Positions 3,411 through 9,832 of a DNA stretch of 20,917 nt are shown here, piece by piece. The DNA is from a virus: the IMG/VR virus record IMGVR_UViG_3300009177_000132, positions 1 through 20,917 of that record; one strand, 5' to 3'. Position 1 is the first letter of the stretch; each line of letters starts with the position of its first letter. Under the pieces are notes generated by a model. The model had not been told where the DNA came from. It did not search any database and saw only the letters and a program-made list of their open reading frames with translations. The translations under genes and the position numbers were made by a program.

Positions 3411-3946
3411 GCCAAGCATATGACGATGTAGAACCATCCGCAGATAGGCTGCTATTGGTGTGCCGCAACCAACGGGCGGAACTGGGGCAGATGGTGCGGA
3501 AACTCCAGGCCGAGGTAGAGCAGCTACGGCGCGAAAATATCTGCGATGCTTGCTGTGGCAAAGGCAACCCTGGGACGGGCAAGCCTTGCGTGTGCGGCGG
3601 CACTGGCATGGCATCGCGGCAGGCTGCTGGATTCCGCGAGTCTATCAACGAACTGCATGGGCTGCGGGAACAGGCAGAGCGTGATGCTGCGAACCTACGC
3701 CAGCGATGCGAGGCGCTGGAGGCGGACAAGGTTCGGCTGGATTTTATCGAGCACTCAAAGGATGAGGTAGCGTGGCGCAACAAGTCGTGGGCTGTGTTGG
3801 CCGGTGAGCCGAGCCTGCAATGCCTGCCTGTCGATCCAAAGGGTAAACCCTACGGCACATTCGCCACGCTCCGCGAAGCCCTAGACGCCGCAATCTCCGC
3901 ACAACCGCACGCTGGATGCAACGGCGGGGAGGCAAGCAAAGATTGA
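3407..3946 (+). CDS. Coiled-coil protein with a DnaJ-like zinc motif
   Basis: 179 residues from the ATG at 3407, which has AGGAGGTAGGGG upstream and overlaps the previous stop. The much longer upstream frame lies over the XRE gene and is a shadow. A coiled coil (LGQMVRKLQAEVEQLRREN) is followed by CDACCGKGNPGTGKPCVCGG, a pair of CxxC/CxGxG units as in the DnaJ central domain, then a second coiled coil. The C-terminal 60 residues (RLDFIEHSKDEVAWRNKSWA, then a TFATLREALDAAI segment) resemble a short domain seen at the ends of many phage hypothetical proteins. Function unknown. Confidence 0.7.
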   Translation: MSQAYDDVEPSADRLLLVCRNQRAELGQMVRKLQAEVEQLRRENICDACCGKGNPGTGKPCVCGGTGMASRQAAGFRESINELHGLREQAERDAANLRQRCEALEADKVRLDFIEHSKDEVAWRNKSWAVLAGEPSLQCLPVDPKGKPYGTFATLREALDAAISAQPHAGCNGGEASKD

Positions 3947-3948
3947 CG

Positions 3949-4245
3949 ATGGACGCCCCATACCAATCGCATAGCGATACATCCAAGGAAGCTGCGGAAT
4001 GGATCGAGCCCAAAAAGCTAACCCTGCGCCGTAAGGTATTGGAATATATGCGTAAAGTAACGCGAGCCACCGATGAGCAAATCCAAGATGCGCTTGAAAT
4101 GAATCCATCGACTGAGCGGCCACGGCGCATTGAACTGGTTGATTCCGGACACGTTAAGGATTCTGGTGCTACTGCGCTAACCAAGAGCGGGCGGCGTGCA
4201 GTTCTGTGGGAAATAAACGAACCGAAGCAGGGAAATCTGTGGTGA
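3949..4245 (+). CDS. Winged-helix DNA-binding protein
   Basis: 98 residues from the ATG at 3949. An in-frame ATG at 3916 is possible but lies inside the preceding gene. Residues about 24-90 read as a winged helix: a helix (LTLRRKVLEYMRKV), the turn ATDEQIQDALEMNPSTERPR, a recognition helix (PRRIELVDSGHV), then the wing strands DSGATALTKSGRRAVLWEI. Domains of this type occur in phage replication initiators and small regulators. It precedes the structured region and the replication-O-like gene, which suggests a replication or control role. The GGGGAGG site is 16 bases away, so the start is less certain than the domain. Confidence 0.75.
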   Translation: MDAPYQSHSDTSKEAAEWIEPKKLTLRRKVLEYMRKVTRATDEQIQDALEMNPSTERPRRIELVDSGHVKDSGATALTKSGRRAVLWEINEPKQGNLW

Positions 4246-4297
4246 TGCAGAAAAAGTGCGGATGGATGGATTATTTTAGGCCGAGGCGTGATATTCT

Positions 4298-4477
4298 ATG
4301 GACGTAGCATACAAAGCTTTTGGGGCAGCGTGCGCGAACACCTGCCCCGGTCCTTCGCGGGGCGCATGCGCATATTTACTCATCGCCGCTGTAGCGGCAT
4401 CCAACCAAACCCGCAGAAGAACTCCGCTGTACTTCGCCTGGAGCCTAGAGCGATCCCGCGAGGCTGGCCCTTCCTGA
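4298..4477 (+). CDS. Possible 59-residue small protein in the structured region
   Basis: The frame runs from the ATG at 4298 to the TGA at 4475 and starts MDVAYKAFGAACANTCPGPS. It has a short hydrophobic stretch (ACAYLLIAAVAAS) and a basic tail (NQTRRR). Only a weak GAGG lies about 11 bases upstream. It overlaps by ten bases a 20-residue frame at 4245-4307 whose ATG shares a base with the stop of the winged-helix gene. The same DNA makes several of the hairpins listed for 4246-4748, so it may be RNA rather than protein, or both. Weak support. Confidence 0.25.
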   Translation: MDVAYKAFGAACANTCPGPSRGACAYLLIAAVAASNQTRRRTPLYFAWSLERSREAGPS

Positions 4478-4661
4478 TTACAGCGGTAGATATCCAATCG
4501 AGGGCTGACGAGTTGAGTTTTGAGGTAAGCAGGAAACCCAACCCCTGACGGGGAGCGCTGGGCCACCTGCTCTGGAAGTGCAGGTTAAAGAGCCTGAGGG
4601 ATGCGGCGGATATGGGGAGCCGTAGACCAGAACCTGCAAACCTTAGATTCTTTTGTGTATT

Positions 4662-4711
4662 CTGCTAAATGCAGCAGGGGTTTTTACAAGACCCCATGGA
4701 GAGATTTTTTT
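4662..4711 (+). terminator. Possible weak terminator or attenuator hairpins
   Basis: CTGCT-AAATGC-AGCAG (4662-4677) is followed after GGG by TTTTT. An overlapping GGGGT/ACCCC hairpin (4677-4695) is followed nine bases later by seven T. Stems are only five pairs and the T-runs are not adjacent, so this would be a leaky site at best, consistent with attenuation ahead of the replication gene. Confidence 0.3.
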
Positions 4712-4748
4712 GTACTGAAGTAGCCGCGCTCGGTGCTGGGAGGAAAGA

Positions 4749-5171
4749 ATGCCGCAAATAGACCCGCAATGGTTTGACGAATTTTGGCAGCTTTACCCTC
4801 GAAGGGTAGCCAAGCGCGCTGCGCTCAAGGCTTGGTTCAAGCTGGATTGGACTGAAGCCCTTCAGGAGCAGATCATGGCGGGGCTGAGGGCGCAATTGCC
4901 TGAATTGCTAAAAACTTACAAGCGCGACCGGTCGATGGTGCCGCATCCGGCAACGTGGCTGAATGGCCGCAGGTTCGAGGATGAAGCCAGCGTCCGTACA
5001 GCGTCCGTACAGCGCGTCATTGCCTGCGAGAAGTGCGCCGATACTGGCGTGGTGCTTGTTTCAGGGAATGTGGAATGGATCGGACAAGATGTGCTGATCG
5101 ACTTGGCCTGCTGCGACTGTGCCGCTGGTAATCTTCCCGGCGTTCTCGCTGGCGTGGAGGAAGGCGTATGA
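4749..5171 (+). CDS. Replication protein O-like / helicase-loader-interacting protein with zinc ribbon
   Basis: 140 residues with an excellent GGGAGGAAAGA site. Residues 9-78 show a pattern common in the C-terminal part of phage replication proteins: FDEFWQLYPRRVAKRAALKA, then a helical middle, then VPHPATWLNGRRFEDE. In phage O-type proteins this segment works with the host helicase or its loader at the origin. Unlike full-length O proteins there is no N-terminal origin-binding domain; the winged-helix protein at 3949-4245 could supply it as a separate subunit (inference). The C-terminus has CEKC and CCDC pairs that could bind zinc. A tandem 11-base repeat lies at 4989-5010, between the two parts. 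Confidence 0.65.
   Translation: MPQIDPQWFDEFWQLYPRRVAKRAALKAWFKLDWTEALQEQIMAGLRAQLPELLKTYKRDRSMVPHPATWLNGRRFEDEASVRTASVQRVIACEKCADTGVVLVSGNVEWIGQDVLIDLACCDCAAGNLPGVLAGVEEGV
4989..5010 (+). repeat. Tandem 11-base duplication inside the replication gene
   Basis: AGCGTCCGTAC occurs twice head to tail. Eleven is not a multiple of three, so gain or loss of one copy would shift the frame and remove the C-terminal Cys pairs. The present frame with two copies gives the sensible zinc-ribbon tail. Confidence 0.85.
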
Positions 5172-7349: not shown

Positions 7350-7514
7350 CTAGGGCTTGTAGGCCCACTGCCGATCCTCGCAGCAGGAAGGGCATTCGCA
7401 ATGGCGCGTACAGCGCATAAAGCGCAAGCAGATTAAGCCGTTGCATGTCTCATCATTCGGGCAATCCGAAGGCGAGAAGTTAACATCATCGATGAAATCT
7501 TCAAGATCGCTCAT
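7350..7514 (-). CDS. 54-residue Cys-rich protein
   Basis: The reading frame starts MSDLEDFIDDVNFSPSDCPN and ends with the TAG at 7350-7352. It carries nine Cys, mostly in the second half (CNGLICLRFMRCTRHCECPS, then CC), an arrangement suited to one or two zinc ions. The first third is acidic. It is the last gene of the leftward cluster, only four bases after the previous stop. No family is recognised. Confidence 0.55.
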   Translation of the reverse strand: MSDLEDFIDDVNFSPSDCPNDETCNGLICLRFMRCTRHCECPSCCEDRQWAYKP

Positions 7515-7518
7515 CGCG

Positions 7519-7596
7519 CTACCGCCACGCTCGTTTGAAGCAAGCCAGGATCAGGAGGAAGGCGGCGAGGATGAGGCAGCAAGCGGCGAAGGTCAT
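7519..7596 (-). CDS. 25-residue single-helix membrane peptide
   Basis: MTFAACCLILAAFLLILACF followed by KRAWR. Residues 3-20 are a hydrophobic helix with three Cys, then a basic tail that would stay in the cytoplasm. Its ATG overlaps the preceding stop (ATGA). Very short, but coupling and composition support translation. Function unknown. Confidence 0.5.
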   Translation of the reverse strand: MTFAACCLILAAFLLILACFKRAWR

Positions 7597-8172: not shown

Positions 8173-8190
8173 GTGTGCCTCCCTAAGCTG

Positions 8191-8298
8191 CTAGATCGAA
8201 GTTCCCGACATCGCCAACGTGGCCAGCGCCACAAGAACGCAAGCCCCGAAGATAATCAATATCGCCATTCCCGCTGCGTCTTTTTGTGTTTTGCTCAT
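8191..8298 (-). CDS. 35-residue single-helix membrane peptide, first gene of the leftward cluster
   Basis: MSKTQKDAAGMAILIIFGAC followed by VLVALATLAMSGTSI. Residues 10-29 are a hydrophobic helix after a short basic and polar start, so the N-terminus should be cytoplasmic. There is no good ribosome binding site. The predicted transcription start from the promoter at 8305-8333 coincides with the ATG. Holin-like or exclusion peptides have this shape, but no assignment is possible. Confidence 0.5.
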   Translation of the reverse strand: MSKTQKDAAGMAILIIFGACVLVALATLAMSGTSI

Positions 8299-8304
8299 AC
8301 ACTC

Positions 8305-8333
8305 ACTCTACATCATCATGATGATGAGTGCAA
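8305..8333 (-). promoter_or_regulatory. Leftward promoter with an operator as its spacer
   Basis: On the minus strand TTGCAC (8333-8328), a 17-base spacer and TAGAGT (8310-8305; 4 of 6 matches). The -10 ends six bases before the ATG at 8298. The spacer is almost exactly the 16-base palindrome at 8311-8326. The -35 match is poor, so the promoter is inferred mainly from spacing and context. Confidence 0.4.
8311..8326. promoter_or_regulatory. Perfect 16-base palindrome, probable operator
   Basis: CATCATCATGATGATG is its own reverse complement, flanked by CACT at 8304-8307 and AGTG at 8327-8330, which extend the symmetry with a three-base offset. It sits between divergent genes starting at 8298 (minus) and 8435 (plus), inside a putative promoter spacer. 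It is a likely repressor or activator site; no protein is assigned. Confidence 0.5.
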
Positions 8334-8434
8334 GAGAATAATGCTATTCCCGCAAAGATTTGTTGAACAGAAGGCGAAAGTCAAGGAAAAACGCTACAAA
8401 TGTTGATTTTCTGATAAAGTAGCCTCAAGTAGCT

Positions 8435-9284: not shown

Positions 9285-9339
9285 TCAGTACTCCTGGCCC
9301 ACTCAGGCGGGGCAGGCCGCAGCCATGCCCCTGATGAGT

Positions 9340-9356
9340 GTGCACTACCAGTGTAC
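9340..9356. promoter_or_regulatory. Imperfect inverted repeat overlapping a promoter
   Basis: GTGCACT-ACC-AGTGTAC: arms of seven with six matches, centred between the leftward gene at 9284 and the rightward gene at 9387. The right arm overlaps the putative -35 box at 9352-9357. A plausible operator. Confidence 0.4.
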
Positions 9357-9380
9357 AACGCGCGTCAAGTGGCGTATGAT
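9352..9380 (+). promoter_or_regulatory. Rightward promoter ahead of a small membrane gene
   Basis: TGTACA at 9352-9357 (4 of 6), a 17-base spacer and TATGAT at 9375-9380 (5 of 6). The -10 ends six bases before the ATG at 9387, giving a leaderless message if used. It could also read on into the late genes. Confidence 0.5.
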
Positions 9381-9386
9381 TCCATC

Positions 9387-9500
9387 ATGCTATTCCACTC
9401 ACCACGTAGGCGCGCATGGTTAGGCGGCATAGAGTACATCCCTGTCGCGCTGGGCCTTACGATGATCGCAATCATGCTATGGATGGCATATAGGGGCTGA
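9387..9500 (+). CDS. 37-residue membrane peptide
   Basis: MLFHSPRRRAWLGGIEYIPV followed by ALGLTMIAIMLWMAYRG. A basic N-terminal patch (RRR) precedes a hydrophobic helix from about residue 18 to 35, predicting an N-in orientation. There is no ribosome binding site and the ATG coincides with the expected transcription start. Function unknown; the small size and helix fit a holin-like or membrane-modifying peptide. Confidence 0.45.
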   Translation: MLFHSPRRRAWLGGIEYIPVALGLTMIAIMLWMAYRG

Positions 9501-9652
9501 AAACGCTATTGACGCGATGCCAAACCAAAACCCAGATCGATCCGACCCCACCCGGGTGCGGCAGGGGGTCACTCCCCTCACATTCGCGCTCGATTTTCCA
9601 CGCCATACCAATAGAAAATTTCGATTTCAGGGAAAGGTGCTAAGTTTTTAGC

Positions 9653-9832
9653 ATGCGGATCAAGATATTCATCGAAATTGGGGAAGATCGGGTCGAATTT
9701 GAGTTTCGCGTCGGCGGAGTAGACCTCGGCTTGCTCAATTCCAACCCGGAGCGTTTCTATCACGATTACATTGAGCCGACTGGTGTTATGGCTACCAACG
9801 GCCTAGCGGAAAAGCGCCGCGCGAGAAATTAG
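9653..9832 (+). CDS. Small hypothetical protein upstream of the large terminase
   Basis: 59 residues, starting MRIKIFIEIGEDRVEFEFRV, with alternating beta-strand character and then FYHDYIEPTGVMATNGLAEK and a basic end. The TAG ends one base before the terminase ATG. GGGAAAGG is about 14 bases upstream, and a GCTAA/TTAGC hairpin (9639-9652) sits directly before the start. The opposite strand also has an open frame here (9578-9763). The plus strand is preferred because of continuity with the terminase. Confidence 0.5.
   Translation: MRIKIFIEIGEDRVEFEFRVGGVDLGLLNSNPERFYHDYIEPTGVMATNGLAEKRRARN

Follow-up and report, generated by a model that had tools for sequence, protein, structure and literature searches.

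What occupies the 503 bases that separate a winged-helix-like gene from a replication-initiation-like gene in the early operon of this phage? The window analyzed here is the whole 20,917-nucleotide stretch, a 20.9-kb virus fragment to which a second IMG/VR record (L002) is identical over 11.2 kb. The gap, at positions 4246 to 4748, is the largest in the window and, as the initial annotation held, the sole large gap of the early operon; the claim does not extend to the window at large, in which gaps of 368 bases (9285 to 9652) and 262 bases (8173 to 8434) are also present. A structured regulatory RNA had been proposed for this site on the basis of at least five strong hairpins, an eight-pair long-range stem, a GCAGGT pairing switch, and weak terminator-like hairpins. 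The proposal itself is upheld by homologs, which supply compensatory base pairs, a shared topology, a consensus fold, and no coding signal, but the specific case made for it is not. The features that carry our analysis, a promoter block and an H1/H2/H3 core at positions 4322 to 4423, had been overlooked (Table 1).

Table 1. Coordinates and basis of the features in and around the gap
Feature	Position	Strand	Basis or comment
Winged-helix-like gene, phrog_1123, function unknown	3916..4245	+	PHROGs, 1.8e-14
Promoter block (putative)	4243..4297	+	98% identical to L003 2940-2994 over 55 bases (blastn)
Extended −10 motif TGATATTCT (TGNTATNNT)	4289..4297	+	Motif scan; 33 nt before H1
Conserved core, covariance model R1	4322..4431	+	~110 nt
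Hairpin H1: GGGGCAG-C-GUG [CGCGAA] CAC-CUGCCCC	4322..4348	+	Pairing probability 0.98-0.99
Long-range stem H2: GGU.CUUC.GCGGG (4349-4361) with CCCGC.A.GAAG.A.ACU (4410-4423)	4349..4423	+	Minimum free energy fold in three homologs folded separately
Hairpin H3 inside H2: GCCGC [UGUA] GCGGC	4385..4398	+	Separate folds, pair table
Variable leader part, with GCAGGT pairings and weak terminator-like hairpin 4660-4679	4432..4708	+	Without DNA similarity to L003 or L004
Pre-start segment, ribosome site CTGAAGTAGCCGCGCTCGRTGCTGGGAGGAA at its end	4709..4745	+	92% identical to L003 3515-3551 (blastn)
Replication-initiation-like gene	4749..5171	+	PHROGs 270 and 9474, E 6e-18 and 7e-18

The common element became visible when the window was aligned with two distantly related phages, L003 and L004, each of which has the same element upstream of a related rep gene (best segment, 49% identical). 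In L004, a homolog of the winged-helix-like gene also lies directly 5′ of the element (64% identical aligned residues), and several genes intervene between the element and rep. When the L003/L022 stretches were compared with the L004/L012 stretches, the sole DNA similarity was 50 bases at 80% identity, located within the core of this leader. Between the window and L003, the promoter block and the 37-base pre-start segment frame a leader that otherwise differs, and no DNA similarity is found immediately on either side of the promoter block. The window has about 317 untranslated bases from core to gene, L003 has 430 to the next start, and L004 has about 300 to the next small gene. At the end of this stretch in the window, a strong ribosome site, as described by the initial annotation, is indeed present ahead of the ATG at 4749. 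The product of 4749 to 5171 covers just residues ~178 to 259 of the PHROGs replication initiation proteins and lacks their N-terminal part.

Other segments of the window are also shared with L003. A noncoding block before the terminase genes (9494 to 9656) is 94% identical to L003 7446-7608, the terminase gene itself being 84% identical, and contains GCTAAGTTTTTAGC and GACCCC/GGGGTC inverted repeats; it is a possible packaging or promoter site. A mostly intergenic segment inside the gap at 8173 to 8434 (8296 to 8379) is 96% identical to L003 6312-6394, and 61 bases at 7511 to 7571, inside small overlapping minus-strand frames, are identical to L003 5047-5107.

A putative promoter lies at the 5′ end of the gap. 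The distance from TGNTATNNT to H1 is 33 nt in both the window and L003 (motif at 2986) and 31 nt in L004 (motif at 4476). No good −35 hexamer was found at the motif at 4289 to 4297, and the motif occurs three times on the plus strand of the window, three times in L004, and 3 to 6 times per 10 to 21 kb on that strand across the three phages. The L003 motif is not an independent observation, because it is part of the near-identical block, whereas L004 has kept the motif amid diverged sequence, which is informative. We predict a transcript start near position 4304 from the motif and the constancy of its spacing.

The core follows the predicted start. L003 and L004 both have H1, in which two pairs are strictly compensatory (A-U/G-C and G-C/C-G) and G-U variants also occur. 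H2 starts directly 3′ of H1 and encloses H3, the counterparts of which are GCGCC [UGUA] GGCGC in L004 and, with one mismatch, GGCUUC [AUUC] GAAUCC in L003. The same topology, H1 and then H2 around H3, was obtained for all three cores folded separately. All 11 H2 pairs are standard in each of the three sequences, and the pair table lists several as changed on both sides; that table overstates H2 compensation because the register of the window is shifted by one base relative to L003, and strict sequence columns give about two compensatory changes in H2. Consensus-fold energies of MAFFT alignments of the core and of H1 plus H2 were equaled by 0, 0, 6, and 0 of 300 column shuffles (z of −2.4 to −4.6), and H1 by itself did not reach significance against column shuffles (z of about −1.7). 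Because the antisense strand gives a consensus energy equal to that of the sense strand, we argue for the sense strand from the direction of the promoter, the direction of the genes, and the G-U pairs of L003. In a fold of the full 488-nt leader of the window, the probability of H2 was only 0.13 to 0.25 and that of H3 was 0.6; cotranscriptional folding would favor H1 and H2, which could form before the 3′ part is transcribed.

Coding capacity does not account for the conservation of the core. Its length differs among the homologs by indels of 1 to 2 bases, not multiples of three, and frames in the leaders scored −0.06 to −0.39 bits per codon on both strands, whereas real genes scored +0.05 to +0.39. 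Protein-like conservation of the 59-residue frame in the gap, which by the initial annotation would refute a structured RNA, was absent: the frame scored −0.18 per codon and the indels are nontriplet. The L003 leader is spanned by an open frame of 217 codons, which scored −0.14 per codon, and the leader frames had no match above cutoff in Pfam, PHROGs, or NCBIfam. We conclude that a noncoding, structured RNA family common to the three phages is well supported, although it has only three members.

Is the element a known RNA, and how widely does it occur? With respect to Rfam 15, the initial annotation was right to recognize no family: the window, L003, L004, L005, and L007 had no match at the gathering score, and scans at weak E values gave no credible matches. 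A full-length match to the Moco-II RNA motif (RF01713) at 4367 to 4414 reached 15.9 bits against a 35-bit cutoff (E of 1.1 to 5.7 over all families and 0.04 for RF01713 alone), was absent from L003 and L004, and was taken as chance. DNA searches in phages and Escherichia coli found no homologs, viral and genome contigs scanned by pattern yielded nothing beyond L003, L004, and chance matches, and a covariance search of 52 rep-gene loci added no further members. A covariance search of 369 plus 399 bacterial genomes was also empty, a result that shows little, as its filters were strict and had no positive control. On the minus strand of L083 (5309 to 5333), a hairpin, GGGGGCGGTGCCGCAAACACCCCC, shares its loop with H1 of L004 and is without H2; as the loop was fixed in the search pattern, the match may be due to chance. 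The leaders of the two homologs have features of their own. In L003, an 18-base inverted repeat (89%) with a 49-base loop lies at 3430 to 3514, just 5′ of the conserved ribosome-site segment; the window lacks an equivalent. The complete L004 leader gives a good fold (z of −3.4), and its 3′ part (4735 to 4887) weakly matches the full length of RT-3 RNA (RF03068) with 16.2 bits and an E of 0.09 to 0.2; no reverse transcriptase was found in the L004 record.

What might such an RNA do? In the reading we favor, at a probability of about 0.35, the element would represent a new family of phage leader RNAs with its own promoter that acts in cis on RNA polymerase, in the manner of put antitermination. 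The put RNAs of phage HK022 suppress termination in cis via the zinc-binding domain of the RNA polymerase beta-prime subunit. The element resembles putL and putR in its two adjacent stems, which would lie directly 3′ of an early phage promoter, and in the long stretch of operon after them. It differs in being about 110 nt rather than about 70 nt, in its nested hairpin, and in its putative extended −10 promoter before replication genes. The putL element is a stem-loop pair just 3′ of its promoter, and very few phages, HK022 and its relatives, are known to have protein-free antitermination RNAs (PMC9378689). Model R1 had no match in HK022 positions 26000 to 40000, a stretch that leaves out the left end with putL.

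The favored mechanism would run as follows. Transcription would begin near 4304 at the putative extended −10 promoter, H1 would fold first, and H2/H3 would fold directly behind it, a structure that the three homologs back. The folded element might then act in cis, enabling RNA polymerase to traverse the next 300 to 430 nt of the leader, which are untranslated and little conserved, as far as the replication gene. Long untranslated leaders are natural targets of Rho, which a put-like element would counter. It counts against antitermination that intrinsic terminators downstream of the element were not in excess over shuffles. Direct masking of the ribosome site by the core is disfavored, since both the distance and the sequence between core and gene are free to vary. 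An element that acts on polymerase fits because the core lies just after the predicted promoter, as put does in HK022, and a variable untranslated stretch lies beyond it.

The main alternative to the leader reading is a trans-acting or antisense-switch small RNA, like P4 CI/P1 C4 or Gifsy IsrK, that controls the replication gene and perhaps immunity. A promoter and a compact structured RNA 5′ of replication genes are the layout of P4, whose leader 5′ of its replication gene matches both C4 and isrK, and IsrK sets a precedent as both a small RNA and a leader (PMC4825925). The C4 RNA (RF01695; targets RF03163) is likewise structured and also lies in the early leader of a phage, 5′ of a replication gene. 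However, C4 has a long outer stem around two hairpins, whereas H1 here stands outside the second stem, and C4 matched none of five records at an E of ≤10, although P4 itself scored 74.9 bits. Gifsy-1 IsrK (RF01394) resembles the element in that a structured RNA at the 5′ end shares its transcript with the genes downstream, but it has a terminator with a U-run, which is absent here, and the isrK family gave no match. A suggested resemblance of frames in L003 and L004 to Icd/Ash found no support from Pfam, NCBIfam, PHROGs, or tblastn in phages or plasmids; PF10554 was absent from the window, L003, and L004 records, NF033153 was absent from the window record, and an actual NF033153 member (L029) did not resemble the L003/L004 frames. 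Moreover, no conserved terminator was found 3′ of the core, and the H1 loop had no complementary target beyond chance. We consider a trans-acting RNA rather unlikely.

The initial annotation had favored an attenuator or riboswitch-like leader, in which mutually exclusive pairings control a terminator or the ribosome site. In keeping with such control, CCCC of H1 could pair instead with GGGG of H2, the ribosome site is partly paired in the fold model (mean unpaired, 0.32), and the pre-start segment is conserved with L003. The pairings that had been named fare poorly, however. Both strands of the eight-pair stem, CCGCTGTA (4424 to 4431) and TACAGCGG (4479 to 4486), are present, but their pairing probability is just 0.11. 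For GCAGGT (4580 to 4585), ACCTGC occurs at 4565 and 4632, and also at 4340, but the probability is about 0.24 for the upstream pairing and 0.00 for the downstream one. The region as a whole is not unusually stable (gap fold z of −0.33, with 39 of 100 dinucleotide shuffles equally stable), and the leader folded from its predicted start gave a z of −0.66. Terminator-like hairpins match the number expected from shuffles and are not shared, with one weak plus-strand site in the window and none on the plus strand of the L003 and L004 leaders. Because the GCAGGT switch and these hairpins sit in the 3′ two thirds of the leader, which is unconserved in L003 and L004, and because the alternative pairings are minor in the ensemble, an attenuator with an intrinsic terminator is unsupported. 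All three core sequences prefer the same fold, and we regard an attenuator or riboswitch-like leader as doubtful. The same variable part includes, on the minus strand at 4584 to 4593 and thus opposite the operon strand, an exact GCTCTTTAAC, the core of the ribosomal-operon boxA, as a single copy in the window and with no counterpart in L003 or L004.

A more skeptical explanation is that the gap is a mosaic intergenic region in which just the promoter and local similarity are common, the fold being a by-product of GC-rich sequence. The individual folds do lie within about 1.5 standard deviations of shuffles (z of −0.9 to −1.4 in each homolog), and the comparison has three sequences only, one pair of which is near-identical in the promoter block. 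The consensus-fold shuffle tests and the compensatory pairs of H1 argue otherwise, as does conservation of the core where nothing else is conserved at the DNA level, and they make a mosaic origin improbable. Weaker than the trans-acting RNA, and very doubtful in our estimate, is a DNA site (a replication origin or a primosome or DnaG single-strand priming site), which would suit the adjoining replication-initiation-like gene of the window and a complementary strand that folds equally well, as a DNA hairpin would, but which sits poorly with leaders of the window and L003 free of iterons or other direct repeats, with the genes that separate the element from rep in L004, and with a fixed promoter-motif spacing and L003 G-U pairs that fit RNA better.

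The element, which would match put in action but not in sequence, might represent a new family of factor-independent processive antitermination RNAs through which soil phages permit transcription of their replication operon, an extension that we put forward as speculative and on balance improbable. If the locus proves to hold just a promoter and chance hairpins, there is nothing new to learn from it. Otherwise, this short conserved leader RNA, with a promoter to itself, offers a candidate control element that is new, small, and open to direct testing, and covariance model R1 provides the means to look for more members.
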